Source: Salinisphaera orenii subsp. orenii MK-B5
GTDB taxonomy: Bacteria > Pseudomonadota > Gammaproteobacteria > Nevskiales > Salinisphaeraceae
Direction of reading: 5' to 3'
Length of the DNA stretch: 64,000 bases
Assembly: GCF_003788635.1 (NCBI RefSeq)
Contig: NZ_AYKH01000023.1
Location: 124,001 to 188,000 of the forward strand
Shown here piece by piece: positions 20,494 to 52,251 of the stretch (positions are counted from its first letter, which is position 1; the number at the start of each line of letters is the position of its first letter). The notes under the pieces were generated by a model. It was not told where the DNA came from, ran no database searches, and worked only from the letters and a program-made list of their open reading frames with translations. A program made the translations under genes and the position numbers.

Positions 20494-20518
20494 TCGCCCG
20501 CCCCGCGCGTCGGCTGGT

Positions 20519-21106
20519 TCACGAACCGCCCAGCATTCGCATGCCGACGATCACGCCGGCGATCAGCAGGAGCAGGCTCGTGCCCAGCAGCAGGGCGTGG
20601 CGTCGCCACAGTGCGAGCGCGCGCTCGCCCGCCAGATACACCAGCAGCGCCAGGCCGAAATAGCGCAGGCCGCGGGCCAGGCCGACGGCGACGAGAAACA
20701 GCGGCAGCGCATAGCCGGCGATCCCCGCGGCCAGCAGTGCGACCTGAAACGGAATCGGCGTTACACCGATCGCGACGATGGCCAGAAAACCGTTGTTCGA
20801 GAAACGCTGGCTGAAGCGCTCGTAGGCGGCGTCGGCGCCGAGCGTGTCCAGCAGCCACTGGCCGATGGAATCGAACACGAAGAAACCGATGCCGTACCCG
20901 ATGAGCGAGCCGGCGACGCAGCCGCCGAAGGTGACCGCCGCGATCAGCCACAGCCGTGTCGGACGCGCGAGCATATACGGCACCATGACCAGTTCGATCG
21001 GAACCGGCAGGATCAGCGTCTCCATCGCCGACAGTACGCCGAGCCATGCGAGGCCGTGGTTGGAATCGAGCAGACGCTGTGTCCAGCGCGAGGCGCGCGT
21101 CACCAT
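20519..21106 (-). CDS. DedA/YqaA-like membrane protein (VTT domain)
   Basis: 195 residues with about five hydrophobic segments. The N-terminal amphipathic part MVTRASRWTQRLLDSNHGLAWLGVLSAMETLILPVPIELVMVP and the core AIGVTPIPFQVALLAAGIAGYALPLFLVAVGLARGLRYFGLA match the SNARE-associated/VTT family of YqaA type, with the conserved Pro-rich re-entrant loops and Arg of the second repeat. DedA-family proteins are linked to lipid scrambling and membrane-potential maintenance. Last in a minus-strand run with the MmcB-like gene 33 bases upstream. Confidence 0.83.
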   Translation of the reverse strand: MVTRASRWTQRLLDSNHGLAWLGVLSAMETLILPVPIELVMVPYMLARPTRLWLIAAVTFGGCVAGSLIGYGIGFFVFDSIGQWLLDTLGADAAYERFSQRFSNNGFLAIVAIGVTPIPFQVALLAAGIAGYALPLFLVAVGLARGLRYFGLALLVYLAGERALALWRRHALLLGTSLLLLIAGVIVGMRMLGGS

Positions 21107-21139
21107 GGCCGGCGCATGCGACGTATCAAGCGTATCTCC

Positions 21140-21856
21140 TCAGAGGTCCATCTGTGGCGAGGCGTCATCGCAGATGACGGGTGTCGCCTGTGCCATGGCC
21201 ATCCAGTGCCGGGTGGCCAGGCGACACGGCGTTCGCGGTGCGGCCCGAGCCAGAGTATAGCCCTGCTCCGCCCGCCAGACGACCACGCCGTAATCGGTCG
21301 GAATCTCCTCCGGTTCCGCGATGCCCTCGGCCAGCACGAGATAGCACTCATCGGCGAGCTCCCGATAGCGGGCCGTCTTGTCGGCGCGCAGCTCGCTCAA
21401 CAAGTCGGCGCGGCGCACCTTGATCTCGTGGACCCGGGGCGCGAGATGATCGGCCCGCAGGCCGCGCGTCACCGAGAACACGTCCGGTCGGCACACGCGC
21501 CAGCGCCCCTCGCGAGCGGTGCGCATCGCCAGTTCGGTGAACACCACGCGACCGGTCGTGGCCAGATGCCGGGCAACGCCGGCGACGACTTCCGCGTGGC
21601 GGGCGCGCGCCCCACGGTGGCGCGTCATGTTCTCGGCGAGCGCGGCGCGGCCCGCTTCGGTGAGCAGAAAACGGCTCGCCGCCCGCGGATCGGCGATTTC
21701 CCGGATGAGGCCCCGGGCCAGCAGATCGATATCGATGCTGTCATGGTGCGCCCAGCCCAGGCTGCGCCAGTAGTGGCGCAGTCGAATCGCGTGGCGGCGC
21801 GGCAGGCCCGCGCGGCCGCAACTGTCGTTCCGGTGATCTTGAATCGAATCGTGCAT
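21140..21856 (-). CDS. MmcB-like PD-(D/E)XK-fold protein
   Basis: 238 residues. The middle resembles a DNA-repair nuclease-like core: CRPDVFSVTRG (acidic residue), VHEIKVRRADLLSELRADKTARYRELADECYLVLAEGIAEPEEIP. The E-x-K element (HEIKVRRAD) with a preceding Asp is the PD-(D/E)XK pattern, and the order resembles MmcB-related proteins, which restore replication forks on damaged DNA. The N-terminal third looks like a winged helix (LLTEAGRAALAENMTRHRGARARHAEVV). The start is uncertain: the ATG at 21856 or a GTG at 21877; neither has a clear ribosome site. The family call is tentative. Confidence 0.55.
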   Translation of the reverse strand: MHDSIQDHRNDSCGRAGLPRRHAIRLRHYWRSLGWAHHDSIDIDLLARGLIREIADPRAASRFLLTEAGRAALAENMTRHRGARARHAEVVAGVARHLATTGRVVFTELAMRTAREGRWRVCRPDVFSVTRGLRADHLAPRVHEIKVRRADLLSELRADKTARYRELADECYLVLAEGIAEPEEIPTDYGVVVWRAEQGYTLARAAPRTPCRLATRHWMAMAQATPVICDDASPQMDL

Positions 21857-21901
21857 CGGCAGCGAGACTAAATGCACGGTGGGTCAGCACGCGATACGCA
21901 C

Positions 21902-21930
21902 AAAAAAATGTCCGGCCGAAGCCGGACATT
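21902..21930 (-). terminator. Rho-independent terminator of the small secreted protein gene
   Basis: ATGTCCGGC (21908-21916) pairs with GCCGGACAT (21921-21929) around a CGAA loop; on the minus strand the stem runs into seven T. It lies 33 bases beyond the stop at 21963. Confidence 0.92.
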
Positions 21931-21962
21931 CAGATCGGAGCGGCAGTAGACGAGCGCCGGGG

Positions 21963-22277
21963 TTACTGCTTCTGTCCGGAATCCGACTTGCCGTCGTCGC
22001 TGGACATGTTGTCTCTCTCCTCCAGATGTTCCTGCTGCGACTGGGTCGTCGGCATGCCGCCGGTGGTCTCGCCGGTTTCCTGCGTGTCCCGGCTGTCGGC
22101 GTCGTCCGGCACGTTTTCCAGGCTCTCACTCTGGTGTTCGGTCGCCGGCATGATGGTGTCGTCGCCCTGTTTGGCCTGATCGGCGGCGATGGCAGGCACA
22201 GCCATCGCGAGCGCGAGCAGCCCGCTTGCCAGGGCGCCGTTGAGCAGTCCGCGCTTCAGTATCCGGATATCGCTCAT
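21963..22277 (-). CDS. Small secreted protein with duplicated (M/V)P-(A/T)-T-x-x-Q motif
   Basis: 104 residues, no recognised family. A signal peptide spans about 1-31 (AVPAIAAD), and the mature chain is acidic, Gln/Glu/Ser-rich and lacks Cys and Trp. It contains two copies of one short motif, MPATEHQSESLE at 43-54 and MPTTQSQQEHLE at 75-86. The gene at 22458 encodes a second protein of the same design. A very strong AGAGGAGAG ribosome site precedes the ATG at 22277 and a textbook terminator follows, so this is a monocistronic, probably well-expressed gene. Periplasmic location is inferred; function is unknown. Confidence 0.82.
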   Translation of the reverse strand: MSDIRILKRGLLNGALASGLLALAMAVPAIAADQAKQGDDTIMPATEHQSESLENVPDDADSRDTQETGETTGGMPTTQSQQEHLEERDNMSSDDGKSDSGQKQ

Positions 22278-22400
22278 TATTCTCTCCTCTTTCTCGTTGA
22301 TATCGAACGATGCCTCAAGAGCACGACCTCTCCCGCCGCGCTCGAACCCTATGACTATCACGTTTCGGCCGGCAGCCGTGCAATCCGCATAATTGCGGAC

Positions 22401-22429
22401 AAAAAAAGACCCGGCCTGAGCCGGGTCTT
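22401..22429 (-). terminator. Rho-independent terminator of the second small secreted protein gene
   Basis: AGACCCGGC (22407-22415) pairs with GCCGGGTCT (22420-22428) around a CTGA loop; the minus-strand stem is followed by seven T. It is 29 bases past the stop at 22458. Confidence 0.92.
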
Positions 22430-22457
22430 GACGACGGCCGATGGCCGAACGCGGGAT

Positions 22458-22736
22458 CTATTTCTGCGCCACGGCGCGCAGGAGATTGCCGCGATCCTGA
22501 CCATGGTCCAGAACCTGCATCTGGCTGCGCGTCGCCGGCACGTCGGCGTGGCCGGGCTCGGCGTTATCGGACGTCGAGCCGTCGGAGACGTCGCGCAGCA
22601 TGCTGGCCTGCGAGCTGGAGGCCGGAACCATCGTCTCGGCGGCGGCATTGCCCTGTCCCGCGAGCGCCGGTGCGGCGACGGCGGAAAGTGCGATGGCGGC
22701 GACGGCCAGATGAGTGCGGTCGAAGAATTTGGTCAT
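22458..22736 (-). CDS. Small secreted protein, paralogue of the 21963-22277 product
   Basis: 92 residues. Signal peptide about 1-26 (APALAGQ), then an Ala/Ser/Asp-rich mature chain with two motif copies: VPASSSQASMLRDV from residue 37 and VPATRSQMQVLDHG from residue 66. The same (M/V)P(A/T)(T/S)xxQxxxL pattern occurs twice in the neighbouring protein with similar spacing (about 30 residues), indicating duplication and divergence. GGGAG precedes the ATG; a terminator follows the stop; a palindrome lies upstream. No function can be assigned. Confidence 0.8.
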   Translation of the reverse strand: MTKFFDRTHLAVAAIALSAVAAPALAGQGNAAAETMVPASSSQASMLRDVSDGSTSDNAEPGHADVPATRSQMQVLDHGQDRGNLLRAVAQK

Positions 22737-22791
22737 TTCGAACTCCCTTTCAGACGAAAAATGTCAATACCACTAAAGTCGAGTGATGAAT

Positions 22792-22811
22792 ATGACACTG
22801 GTCTGTGTCAT
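22792..22811. promoter_or_regulatory. Palindrome upstream of the small secreted protein gene
   Basis: ATGACAC-N6-GTGTCAT (22792-22798 and 22805-22811), a perfect 7+7 inverted repeat 55 bases upstream of the ATG at 22736, in an AT-richer patch. Position and form suit a dimeric regulator's operator; no regulator is identified. Confidence 0.5.
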
Positions 22812-22927
22812 TGCAAGCGCTGCACTGCAGCACGATGCTTGCAAAACGTCCCAGAAAGCCGAAGGTGCTTGTCTAAGTTGATTTTTTGGGTGTCCATGGA
22901 ATTTCAGGATGAGGTCATAGGCCGCAC

Positions 22928-24304
22928 CTATGACTGGGCGCGGATCCGGCTCGAATCGTCCGAGTGTGTGGCCGGCACGACCTGAAGACTGCGATAGAAC
23001 ACGACACAGGCCAGCGCGCCGGCGAGCAGATTGCCGATCGCCGCGCCGATGCCGACGGTCACCATCGAATCCGCCCAGACCCCGAGTGCGATGCACGGCA
23101 GATAGCAGACGAACAGGCGCGCAAACGAGATCATCAGCGCGCGCAGCGGCCATCCCAGCGCGTTGCCTGCAGACACCACCAGCATGCACAGGCCGAGCAG
23201 CGCGTAGCTCGGCAGCATGAAGCGGATCAGCCACGCCAGACCCTGCCGAACCTCCGGATTGCCGGTCAGCGCCTGGGCGATCCAGGGGGCGAGCAGGCAC
23301 ATCGTGACCCCGAGCAAGAGCTGCCAGACGACGACCGCTTGGGTCGCCACCCGCATGAGCGCGCGGATTCGCGGCCAGTGGCCGGCGCCGTAGCAATGCC
23401 CGAGCCACGGCGGCAGAGACATCGTCAGTGCCAGCACCACCATGAGCGACACGGTTTCGAGGCGGCTCGCCAGGCCCCAGGCCGCCACCGCCGAATCCCC
23501 GAGTCGGGCGATCAGCCCGGTCGCGACCATGGCCGACAACGGCGGCATCAGCTGACTGAGCATGGCCGGGCCGGCGATGCTCAAAAAGCTCGGCGTGGAG
23601 ATCTTCGCCTCGCCGATCAGGCCGTGGCCGCTCAGCCAGTCTTGGCGCGACACGCGCCAGACGAGGAGGACCACGGCCACGGCGAAGGCGAGTATCGTCG
23701 CGATTGCCGCACCCGGCAGGCCGAAACCGTCCCAGCCGCCGACACCGAATATGAGCACCGGGTCGAGCACCAGATTGCACAGGCTCGTCAGCACCATCAG
23801 CGTGCCCGGCAGGCGGGTGTTGTTATGGGCACGAAACAGCGTGTAGCCGAAATAGACCACGCCGCCGAGCCAGTTCGCAGCCAGCTGCGGGGCCCAGTAC
23901 GCGCGGATGCGCCCCAGCATCTCGCCGTCGGCGCCCAGCATCCGGAACAGCGGCGCCTGGAACAGCCAGAGGCCGACCGCGAGTGCGGCCATGATGGCGC
24001 TGCCGCCAATCAGCACGAGACTGGCCAGGCGCTTTGCGCGATCGTCGTCGCCGGCGCCCATCGCGCGCGAGATCGTCGCCGCCATGGCGATGCCCAGCCC
24101 CACCTGCACGCCGATCATGAGAAACGTCAGCGGAAAGGTGAACGACTGCGCCGCCAGCGGTTCCGTACCGAGCCGCGCGACGAACGCCGAATCCACGAGC
24201 TGGAAACCCAGCAGTGACAGTACGCCGATCGCCATCGGCCAGGTCTGGGCGAAGAGCTGCCGGCGCAGCGCACCGGAACTGGCTGTCGGCGGAGTATCGA
24301 CCAT
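22928..24304 (-). CDS. MATE family efflux transporter
   Basis: 458 residues with about 12 hydrophobic segments in two pseudo-repeats of six, the MATE architecture. The N-terminal QTWPMAIGVLSLLGFQLVDSAFVARLGTEPLAA segment is typical of MATE helix 1-2, where transport of cationic drugs or dyes is coupled to H+ or Na+. The second-half copy SIAGPAMLSQLMPPLSAMVATGLIARLGDSAVAAWGLA repeats that pattern. Substrate unknown. No local regulator; the small secreted protein gene lies about 190 bases downstream on the same strand. Confidence 0.9.
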   Translation of the reverse strand: MVDTPPTASSGALRRQLFAQTWPMAIGVLSLLGFQLVDSAFVARLGTEPLAAQSFTFPLTFLMIGVQVGLGIAMAATISRAMGAGDDDRAKRLASLVLIGGSAIMAALAVGLWLFQAPLFRMLGADGEMLGRIRAYWAPQLAANWLGGVVYFGYTLFRAHNNTRLPGTLMVLTSLCNLVLDPVLIFGVGGWDGFGLPGAAIATILAFAVAVVLLVWRVSRQDWLSGHGLIGEAKISTPSFLSIAGPAMLSQLMPPLSAMVATGLIARLGDSAVAAWGLASRLETVSLMVVLALTMSLPPWLGHCYGAGHWPRIRALMRVATQAVVVWQLLLGVTMCLLAPWIAQALTGNPEVRQGLAWLIRFMLPSYALLGLCMLVVSAGNALGWPLRALMISFARLFVCYLPCIALGVWADSMVTVGIGAAIGNLLAGALACVVFYRSLQVVPATHSDDSSRIRAQS

Positions 24305-24687
24305 GCAGCGGCCACGTGGCAGAAGAGTGGATGCGGCGGTACGAACACGGCGCCGCGGACGCGGCGACGCGCGGGTCGCCGGTACGTTCGTAACGGGCTA
24401 GATTGCGCTGGCCGCGCGTTTTACAAGTCGCGGCGCAACGAAAACCGGCCGCCCCGTTGCCGCCCGGCGGCCGGTTCCGGTGCAACATCGAAGGACGCCG
24501 CACGCGCCATCGGTGCTGCACGTCTGAAGCGCGGTGTCGCGTCGGCCGATCACGAGCCGGCGGTCCCGCGGCCGAGCGGGCCCGGACGGTCATGAGCGAA
24601 GGTAATTTCAAGGCCCGTCCGCTCTCGCGACGACACGATCTGACGTCGGGTCTCGGCGCCCTGTCAGCGTGTGGATGCCCCGCGCCT
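24305..24687. other. Intergenic between the CDF and MATE genes
   Basis: 383 bases without a supported gene. It holds the hairpin annotated at 24441-24476, and a separate inverted pair GTACGAAC (24336 region) and GTTCGTAAC (24388 region) near the MATE start that could be regulatory. Nothing else was recognised. Confidence 0.4.
24441..24476 (-). terminator. Hairpin, probable terminator downstream of the CDF exporter gene
   Basis: AACCGGCCGCC (24443-24453) and GGCGGCCGGTT (24466-24476) form a perfect 11-base stem with a 12-base loop. On the minus strand the stem is followed by TT. It is about 210 bases past the CDF stop, so it may instead end a longer leader or act as a structural element. Confidence 0.5.
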
Positions 24688-49500: not shown

Positions 49501-49893
49501 ATGAGAATAAGCAAGGCCGCCCTTCTGGGCGCGTTGATCGTGCCCGCGGTGGGCGTGACCGCCGAGTTGCCGGAACACAATTATCCGACACAGGCGCGCG
49601 TGGAATACGTCTTCGGCTGCATGCAGCAGCTTGGTGGCGAAAACTACGACACGCTGTACAAATGCTCCTGCAGCATCGATTACATCGCGGACAAGCTGAG
49701 CTACGACGACTACGTCACGCTGGACACCTACACACGCGGCGCCCAGGCGGGTGGCGAGCGGCCTGAAGTCCTTCGCGAAGGCGATCTGGCACGGGGCAGC
49801 CGAGCGGAATTCGACAAGATCAAAAGCGAAGCGGCGGACCGCTGTCTCATCGACACCACGCAGGCAGACGATGGGTCTGGAGACGCCGAATGA
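49501..49893 (+). CDS. Secreted four-cysteine protein associated with quinoprotein genes
   Basis: 130 residues. Signal peptide about 1-21 (VGVTAE). The mature chain has Cys40, Cys55, Cys57 and Cys115 in the segments YVFGCMQQLGGENYDTLYKCSCSIDYIADKLSYDDYV and AADRCLID, enough for two disulphides or a redox or metal site (CSC). I recall similar VFGCM...YKCSCSID proteins beside PQQ-dehydrogenase genes in other proteobacteria, but no function is known to me. GGAGGAG precedes the ATG at 49501. It reads in the same direction as xoxF, about 420 bases upstream of it. Confidence 0.72.
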   Translation: MRISKAALLGALIVPAVGVTAELPEHNYPTQARVEYVFGCMQQLGGENYDTLYKCSCSIDYIADKLSYDDYVTLDTYTRGAQAGGERPEVLREGDLARGSRAEFDKIKSEAADRCLIDTTQADDGSGDAE

Positions 49894-50316
49894 GCGCCGG
49901 CAGATTTGATTGTATGCCGCAGCGCGATCATCGCCAGAGCGTTCGTTCTGCAGGCATTTTTTTGCTGCAGCGCAACGCGCATTTAGCCTCGCAAAACCGG
50001 TGCGGCACCGCAGCGAAAAGATTCGGCCGAACACGCGGCCTGCCTGACCGTACCGTTGTGGGCGTCGATCGCGAGCCGCAGAAACACCGCGATCGGGAAG
50101 ATTTCCCGGTTGTTGGAGCGGATTCGAAGCAGCATTCTCGGCATGTGTCTCATGACCAACGCCGTCGTTCCCAATTGACGGTAAATAGGACGCGTGCTAT
50201 CGAAGAGCGTGAGGGGTTGACCGGACATCGCGTTCGATAACCCAAAGGGATGGCCGCCACGGTCATCGACAACGATGGGCATCCGCCCTTCGAACATGAG
50301 ACGGAGGAGAAACGTC
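49894..50316 (+). other. Intergenic leader/promoter region of xoxF
   Basis: 423 bases without a supported gene. It contains the promoter candidate at 50175-50203 and, just before the start codon, ACGGAGGAGAAAC as ribosome site. A CTGCAGGCATTTTTTTGCTGCAG palindrome-like element at about 49951-49972 could end the upstream transcript. Confidence 0.45.
50175..50203 (+). promoter_or_regulatory. Candidate sigma-70 promoter of xoxF
   Basis: TTGACG (50175-50180), a 17-base spacer and TATCGA (50198-50203), about 115 bases ahead of the xoxF start. The -35 matches five of six consensus bases; the -10 is weaker. Confidence 0.4.
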
Positions 50317-52251
50317 GTGAAATTTAATCCAGTCAAGGGGGCACTCCGCGCGACGACTACGGCATTCGCCGTGTCTGCGCTGATGGCTTCCTCAACAGTC
50401 CTCGCCCAGGACAACGGCGACAAGGAGAGCTCCGACAAGAGCGACTCCGGCAGCACGAACCTGGTCGAGATGCAGAAGGATGCGTCGAACTGGCTTATGT
50501 GGAGTGGTCAGTACAACGGCCAACGCTACAGCGAACTCGACCAGATCACCGCCGAGAACGCCGGCGAGCTTGCGCCCGCGTGGACCTTCTCCACGGGTGT
50601 GCTCCGCGGCCATGAAGGCGGCCCGCTGGTCAAGGGCGACACGCTCTACATCCACACGCCGTTCCCGAACAAGGTCTTCGCGATCGATCTCGATTCGCAC
50701 GCGATCAAGTGGAAATACGAGCCGACGCAGAACCCGCAGGTCATCCCCGTGATGTGCTGCGACACGGTCAACCGCGGCCTAGCCTACGGTGACGGCAAGA
50801 TTTTCCTGCAGCAGGCCGACACTACGCTGGTCGCGCTCAACGCGGAAGATGGCAAGGTCGTCTGGAAGAGCAAGAACGGCGACCCGAGCAAGGGCGAGAC
50901 CGCCACGAACGCCCCGCTGGTGATCAAGGACAAGGTCCTGACCGGCATTTCGGGCGGCGAGTTCGGCGTTCGGGGCCACTTGACGGCCTACAACATCGAA
51001 GACGGCAAGCTGGCCTGGCGTGCCTACAGCACCGGCCCCGACGATTCGATGCTGATCGACCCGGAAAACACGATCAACGGCATCACGCAGGAGCCGGTCG
51101 GTGAGGACACCAGTCTCAAGAGCTGGGAAGGTGACCAGTGGAAGATCGGTGGCGGCACCACCTGGGGCTGGATGACCTACGATCCGGAACTCGATCTCGT
51201 GTACTACGGCACCGGTAACCCCGGCACCTGGAACCCGACCCAGCGTCCGGGCGACAACAAGTACTCGATGACGATCTTCGCCCGCGATCCGGACACCGGT
51301 GAGGCCAAGTGGCTCTACCAGATGACGCCCCATGACGAATGGGATTATGACGGCGTCAACGAGAAGATCCTGGTCGACCAGAAGATCGATGGCGAGATGC
51401 GCAAGCTGGTCGTTCACTTCGATCGCAACGGCTTCGCCTACACGCAGGATCGCACCAACGGCGAGCTGCTCGTTGCCGAGAAGTACGACCCGGCGGTCAA
51501 CTGGGCCAGCAAGGTCGACATGAAGACGGGTCGCCCGCAGGTCGTGGACAAATACTCCACGTCGGGCAAGGTCGGTACGAACGTCGAGAACATCTGCCCG
51601 GCGGCGCTGGGTTCCAAGGACCAGCAGCCGGCGTCCTACTCGCCGAAGACCGGTCTGTTCTACGTGCCGACGAACCACGTCTGCATGGACTACGAGCCGA
51701 CCAAGGTCGACTACACCGCCGGCCAGCCCTACGTGGGTGCCACGGTCGCCATGTATCCGGGTCCGAACGACATTACGAACCCGGTCAAGGAGCCGATGGA
51801 AAACCGCATGGGCACGTTCATCGCCTATGACGCCACCACCGGCAAGATCAAGTGGTCCGTGCCGGAGCGTTTCTCGGTCTGGAGTGGCGCCCTGGCCACG
51901 GCGGGCGACGTCGTGTTCTACGGCACGCTGGAGGGCTACCTGAAGGCGGTTGACGCCGAGACTGGTGAGGAGCTCTACAGCTTCAAGACGCCGTCGGGCA
52001 TCATCGGCAACGTCAATACCTGGAAGTACAAGGGCAAGCAGTACATCGGCGTGCTCTCGGGTATCGGCGGCTGGGCCGGCATCGGCATGGCCGCAGGCCT
52101 GACCGACCCGAACGCGGGTCTGGGTGCCGTGGGCGGTTACAAGGACCTCAAGAACTACACCCAGCTGGGTGGCGTGATGACGGTCTTCGCCCTGCCCGAT
52201 TCCGTGGTCGAGAAGACGGAGTCCGGCAGCGACGAGGTCGCGTCCAATTAA
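50317..52251 (+). CDS. xoxF: PQQ-dependent methanol/ethanol-type dehydrogenase, XoxF type
   Basis: 644-residue periplasmic beta-propeller quinoprotein that oxidises primary alcohols with PQQ. Signal peptide about 1-30 (VLAQ), then an acidic Ser/Asp linker. PQQ-site features: adjacent Cys147-Cys148 (VMCCDT), Glu215 (GGEFGVRG), Asn301 (GTGNPG) and catalytic Asp343 in [12 protein letters not shown]. Asp345, two residues after the catalytic Asp, is the extra lanthanide ligand that separates XoxF from calcium-type MxaF, which has Ala there. Start is GTG at 50317 after GGAGGAG; an ATG at 50296 overlaps that site. A hairpin separates it from its cytochrome gene. Confidence 0.93.

Follow-up and report, generated by a model that had tools for sequence, protein, structure and literature searches.

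What do two small neighbouring genes of Salinisphaera orenii, whose products look exported and carry a twice-repeated motif, contribute to the cell, and what controls them? Genes A and B lie on the minus strand of the window, the whole stretch of 64,000 nucleotides that was analysed, and all parts of the pair described below are on that strand. Gene A (22277-21963, from its ATG at 22277 to the last base of the stop codon at 21963) encodes an acidic 104-long protein and gene B (22736-22458, likewise from ATG to stop codon) a 92-long one, both ORFs being where a first-pass annotation made from the sequence alone had placed them. That annotation attributed a signal peptide to each product, and both indeed look exported when judged by eye, with putative signal peptides at residues 1-31 of A (22185..22277, PAIA followed by ADQ) and residues 1-26 of B (22659..22736, APALA followed by GQ). 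Shine-Dalgarno-like sequences, likewise recognised by eye, precede the starts of A (GAGGAGA, 22283..22289) and B (AAGGGAG, 22744..22750), in agreement with the ribosome sites proposed before. The terminators of near-identical style that had been described are also present: a terminator scan places them at 21906..21931 for A and 22406..22429 for B, with stems of 11 and 10 pairs, a loop of 4 and seven T (counted by eye). Four terminator-like sites are found in 21000-23500 (those of A and B, one nested in B and one at 23021) versus 1.4 +/- 1.3 in shuffled sequences, and the promoter scan gave no sigma-70-like promoter in the same segment.

The mature chains, cut by the AxA rule, are free of Cys and Trp in all 14 proteins of the genus, as had been claimed for the two of the window, and in a homologue from another order (G199, see below). 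The rule cuts window B after residue 33, residue 26 being the likelier site, and the residues between the two cuts also lack Cys and Trp. Each of the 14 chains has at most one aromatic residue, and their net charge runs from -2 to -20. A lipobox cysteine is absent from window A and B, which have no Cys; L[ML]GC occurs inside the signal peptide of four of the seven A orthologues (G003, G005, G007, G009), which may be lipoproteins. The pair is flanked upstream by the gene of a MATE family transporter (22928..24304, PF01554) and downstream by the gene of an uncharacterised conserved protein (21140..21877) that matches neither a Pfam nor an NCBIfam model at E <= 0.01. This 245-long protein is present in 13 of the 14 genomes of the genus.

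Each protein carries two copies of the motif [MVT]P-x-[TS]-xx-Q-xxx-[LM]. These are MPATEHQSESL (22119..22151) and MPTTQSQQEHL (22023..22055) in A, and VPASSSQASML (22596..22628) and VPATRSQMQVL (22509..22541) in B, all located by pattern match; the separation, announced as about 30 residues, measures 32 in A and 29 in B. Exactly two places of P-x-[TS]-xx-Q-xxx-[LMI] exist in 15/15 proteins (14 from the genus plus G199), this being also the search pattern, so that P, T/S, Q and L/M/I were required of every copy. The final position is L in 26 of the 30 copies and M in the other four. The internal repeat of A is significant, an equally good match arising in 0 to 9 of 300 shuffles for the seven A proteins. 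For the seven B proteins the range is 3 to 129 of 300; the repeat is weak by this measure in five of them (17 to 129), and the best internal match of the G005 protein is not the motif pair. The two copies of A from G004 are identical at 11/13 positions in protein (by eye) and 30/39 in DNA.

A and B are paralogues, as had been proposed: tblastn relates them within their own genome at E 3.2e-4, and hhalign between profiles of the two orthologue groups gives probability 96 and E 1.6e-9. A tblastn search with A found no third A-like place in this genome at E <= 10. Like-numbered copies are the closer ones, with mean BLOSUM scores of 19.2 (first copies of A and B) and 22.2 (second copies), against 15.7 (first of A with second of B) and 15.0 (second of A with first of B). 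This favours an internal duplication that preceded the gene duplication, the order suggested by the first-pass annotation, by a small difference between short copies.

A and B are found together in seven of 14 Salinisphaera genomes: G000, which is the genome of the window, G003, G004, G005, G007, G009 and G012, whose A is 89% identical to window A. Five pairs for each gene give dN/dS values of 0.13-0.31 for A and 0.18-0.29 for B; these ten pairwise comparisons, all within 0.13-0.31, indicate that A and B are real protein genes, and both evolve under purifying selection. The order MATE transporter, B, A, uncharacterised gene is kept in six genomes, with a flank-to-flank distance of 1.05-1.21 kb in five of them, the contig of G012 breaking off within the second flank. 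B adjoins the MATE gene and A the other flank in G004 too, but there about 280 kb separate the two genes and their strands differ, which is what an inversion with one breakpoint between B and A would produce. The flanks abut or overlap in G001, G002, G006, G008, G010 and G013, leaving no room for the pair, and neither flank was found in G011 (81% complete). An unrooted tree of both flanks from 13 genomes, which does not itself give the direction of gain versus loss, separates the seven carriers from the six non-carriers by one branch with full support (100% ultrafast bootstrap, 1.000 in FastTree), and hence a single event, either of gain or of loss. The first-pass annotation had missed that A and B form a separate islet of about 1 kb with this one change within the genus. 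G014-G016, of the same family, have no credible homologue of A or B.

Searches beyond the family yielded one likely remote homologue. Profile A1 matched four of 369 genomes of the class (G000, G003, G199 and G212), and the G212 match was dropped for two stops within it; profile A2 matched two of the 369, both Salinisphaera. Profile A3 was searched in 85 genomes of the order and 398 of the phylum, where at E <= 0.01 it hit 11 of the 398, namely its own genome and ten others that we do not believe. Sixteen weak A3 hits from the order and phylum searches were judged from their translations to be chance or signal-peptide matches, as were L075, L076 and L080. The class and phylum searches scored up to 12-14 candidates per genome, and distant members may have escaped them. 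The retained protein of G199, from another order of the same class (A1 E 3.2e-4, one of 369 genomes), is 96 residues long and exported-looking. It shares with A and B a signal peptide (by eye) and two motif copies, MPATEHQEDIL and TPVTYHQAEVL, whose internal match is equalled in 1/300 shuffles; it differs in being encoded by a single gene and in having a spacing of 35 and five aromatic residues in the mature chain. Among 56 genomes offered as relatives of G199, which included none other from its listed family, only G199 itself matched. Beside its gene, in divergent orientation, stands the gene of a PQQ dehydrogenase that shares 65% identity with the window protein encoded at 50275-52251. A candidate PhaR core lies 142 bp before the gene of the homologue, where about 0.2 such cores are expected per 180 bp.

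The first-pass annotation knew of no described family with this motif, and no convincing match came from Pfam (best E 0.018, below cut-off), NCBIfam (best E 0.24, window A and B only), PHROGs (best E 0.0031, in 1/10 members, of unknown function), PDB sequences (none below E 0.5) or PADLOC. It had also named absence of the repeated motif from all relatives as what would overturn its view, and the motif is conserved in them. The G007 A orthologue, searched for the A side only, has no match in plasmids or phages, and 74 pattern matches of the A1 alignment in viral contigs included no relative. No RNA family reaches the gathering threshold in 20500-24500. We rejected A and B as phasins, which are cytosolic granule proteins, given the signal peptides recognised by eye and the lack of a phasin profile match. 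A and B appear to form a family without earlier description, made of small paralogues that look exported and largely confined to the genus; in kind it is ordinary. The earlier interpretation is thus supported in part: exported-looking paralogues, internal followed by gene duplication, no convincing family and a motif kept in relatives all stand, and it had not seen the islet or the control region described below. Its further suggestion, that the genes are maintained at good expression, draws on the ribosome sites and terminators.

AlphaFold models of A and B have mean pLDDT of 54.6 and 55.9 and pTM of 0.13 and 0.17, which is consistent with disorder and does not prove it; with only seven sequences for each protein the weight of this reading is limited. 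The A model has no helix outside the signal peptide. In the B model two helices of the mature chain begin, at low confidence, just after the motif S/T (residues 41 and 70). Under the helix capping-box rule, these helix starts together with T/S-x-x-Q suggest that the motif is a helix N-cap.

A PhaR-type palindrome is conserved in front of B and not of A, a feature new here and missed by the first-pass annotation. PhaR is a regulator that senses polyhydroxybutyrate (PHB) granules. In the window, B is preceded by the palindrome TGCTGCAGTGCAGC (22819..22832, minus), a candidate for a PhaR-type operator, which contains CTGCNNNGCAG and lies 82 bp from the start codon. Two bp after it comes TTGCAA (22811..22816, minus), a -35-like hexamer by eye that reads TTGAAA in 5/7 genomes; the -10 box of B is poor, also by eye. 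The 14-bp form TGYTGCANYGCARC is found upstream of B in all seven genomes, 76-82 bp before the start. A single block stands out by far in the alignment of the MATE-B intergenic regions (7 genomes, 233 columns), namely TGYTGCANYGCARC and, directly after it, NNTTGMAA. It holds the three best 14-column segments, which overlap, include the palindrome and tie at 0.918, versus a mean of 0.59 for all columns. Past the palindrome and still ahead of B, G000 and G012, alone among the seven aligned genomes, have a further inverted repeat, TGACACAGACCAGTGTCA (22793-22810).

Three descriptions of PhaR sites serve for comparison. The excerpted text of PMC12542648 gives CTGCNNNGCAG as the PhaR operator of Rhodobacter sphaeroides and YGCRNYGCR as the core in Sinorhizobium meliloti, where TGATGCTGCACTGCAGCGGAA is among the sites bound efficiently; that of PMC12849132 gives the Ralstonia eutropha consensus YTKNTGCRNYGCANMAR, accepting up to 3 mismatches. 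Compared with these consensus sequences, a PhaR-type palindrome stands in 7/7 upstream regions of B, and none is conserved across the seven upstream regions of A. The YGCRNYGCR core is present in all seven B regions and in one of the seven A regions (G009), there not at a conserved place. The B sites have 1-3 mismatches to YTKNTGCRNYGCANMAR, and at most 2 in six of the seven, the seven regions being related and thus not seven independent cases. The A regions have 3 to 5, the 3-mismatch match of G005 being acceptable under the published rule. When 2000 pieces of 180 bp were drawn at random from the window, 51 had a match with at most 2 mismatches and 309 one with at most 3. A PhaR signature pattern had no match in the Salinisphaera stretches scanned, which cover parts of the genomes. 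The PhaR regulon, as known from R. eutropha phaP1 and the PhaR modules of S. meliloti, shares with B the palindromic YGCRNYGCR core (excerpts of PMC12849132 and PMC12542648). It differs in that those excerpts name no A/B-like protein, and in that PhaR of Salinisphaera is a candidate put forward from the site match. The PhaR-dependent proteins of S. meliloti tabulated in PMC12542648 include three 'hypothetical signal peptide protein' entries.

The exact 14-mer was reported in 58 rows over the 14 genomes, versus 34 rows for a reversed-pattern control, and four places seen on both strands merge to leave 54 distinct ones: seven before B, eight at a phasin-like gene, five at a PQQ dehydrogenase gene, two at a PHA-synthase-like gene and 32 elsewhere, several of the last within genes or common to close relatives only. 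The palindrome lies 34-57 bp before the phasin-like gene in 8/14 genomes, and was not found there in the other six, where exact matches only were sought. It directly follows TTGACA-N18-TAATAT in G009 and TTGACA-N18-TAGAAT in G004 (by eye). The assignment as phasin, made by profile comparison, is weak: two of five orthologues hit Phasin_2 below cut-off (best E 0.0014), all five hit the unrelated model Glucodextran_C equally weakly (best 0.0071), and there is no NCBIfam phasin match. A lexA gene is divergent beside the phasin-like gene in 8/8 loci, with a LexA box near its start, CTGGATATATTTACAG exactly in five and the variants CTGGATATCCTTACAC or CTGGATATTCTTACAA in the remaining three. LexA was rejected as owner of the palindrome because in every one of these loci lexA comes with a distinct box for it. 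In G005 and G009 (2/14 genomes) the palindrome adjoins the PHA-synthase-like gene, in the gap that separates this gene from an aldo/keto reductase gene running divergently. The product scores below threshold (192.8 bits, cut-off 365.3) and has Ser at the position where PHA synthases carry Cys.

In 5/14 genomes the palindrome is found about 300-350 bp before a PQQ dehydrogenase gene, after a small exported-looking gene. The window holds such a second exact copy, TGCTGCAGCGCAAC (49963-49976, plus), 312 bp before the PQQ dehydrogenase gene (50275-52251), which is followed by genes for cytochrome c-like and metallo-beta-lactamase-fold proteins; this arrangement recurs in 5/14 genomes. The small gene upstream (49501-49893, plus) encodes an exported-looking protein with cysteines, present in 5/5 loci compared and unmatched in Pfam and NCBIfam at E <= 0.01. 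PHB in Salinisphaera is not a subject of the titles and abstract openings listed, and the papers listed on periplasmic proteomics of this genus are unrelated.

We tentatively favour the hypothesis that A and B are disordered proteins that leave the cytoplasm, that their repeated motif caps helices and serves in binding, and that B is under PhaR-type control. Both would be small, Sec-exported, soluble and largely disordered proteins of the periplasm, or secreted ones, of a lineage-restricted family. Each would present the same short binding element twice, made of a proline, a helix N-cap (T/S-x-x-Q) and a hydrophobic face residue (L/M), and the two copies, folding on contact, may dock onto a common envelope partner. 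B would be transcribed from a promoter of its own, controlled through the PhaR-type operator next to the -35-like hexamer, and PHB granules would titrate PhaR so that B is made together with phasin. A would be expressed from its own upstream region, which has no PhaR-type operator. From this control of B and the presumed export and binding of both proteins, the most likely role of the pair would be to tune some process of the envelope or the periplasm when carbon is in excess.

The pair could instead be a generic envelope filler of a halophile, that is, acidic, disordered, exported hydrophilin-like proteins acting against salt or drying, the motif being what duplication left behind and another regulator owning the palindrome. 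Salinisphaera is a halophilic genus, and the acidic chains free of Cys and Trp, the models with no confident fold and the separate terminators of A and B would all suit such a role. We nevertheless hold it to be somewhat unlikely: P, T/S, Q and L/M are kept across the paralogues and in the homologue from another order beyond what a hydrophilin needs, B is only weakly acidic (net charge -2 to -4), and the palindrome is common to B and the phasin-like gene. Much less probable is a periplasmic chaperone or stress adaptor like Spy and CpxP, a family with a repeated LTxxQ motif that T-x-x-Q-x-x-x-L resembles. A and B share with these proteins their small size, exported look and twice-repeated TxxQ segment, two TxxQxxxL segments being present in each. 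They differ in having P-x-[TS] in place of L-T, with Leu before T/S in 1/30 copies, in lacking a confident fold, helical or other, and in their profile matches: a Pfam scan of 10 members at E <= 1 gave eight families, neither Spy/CpxP nor phasin among them.

The anatomy may also be right and the carbon-storage link wrong, if the palindrome is the operator of a regulator other than PhaR. PhaR is a candidate from the site match, and the pattern also stands about 300 bp before the PQQ dehydrogenase gene in 5/14 genomes and at unrelated genes. We regard this as unlikely, in view of sites that fit CTGCNNNGCAG or its one-step relatives, of their position at the promoter of the phasin-like gene and beside the PHA-synthase-like gene, and of the separate LexA box in all eight phasin-like loci (five exact, three variant), which leaves the palindrome to another protein than LexA.

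A bolder and rather improbable extension of the favoured explanation proposes an exported arm of the PHB response: granules would sequester PhaR, B would be made, and its tandem capped-helix motif would bind a partner in the periplasm, possibly the PQQ dehydrogenase system. This partner is suggested by the same palindrome about 300 bp upstream of its gene in the window and by the presence of such a gene beside the homologue of G199, the only remote one. If true, the arm would link the carbon stored within the cell to the oxidation of substrates on the outside.

For a family with no convincing match in five libraries, the clean pattern of presence and absence eases deletion and comparison. The PhaR-type palindrome provides the first testable condition, PHB accumulation, for proteins otherwise without a handle. 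Should PhaR indeed control B, signalling from storage granules would extend to the cell envelope.
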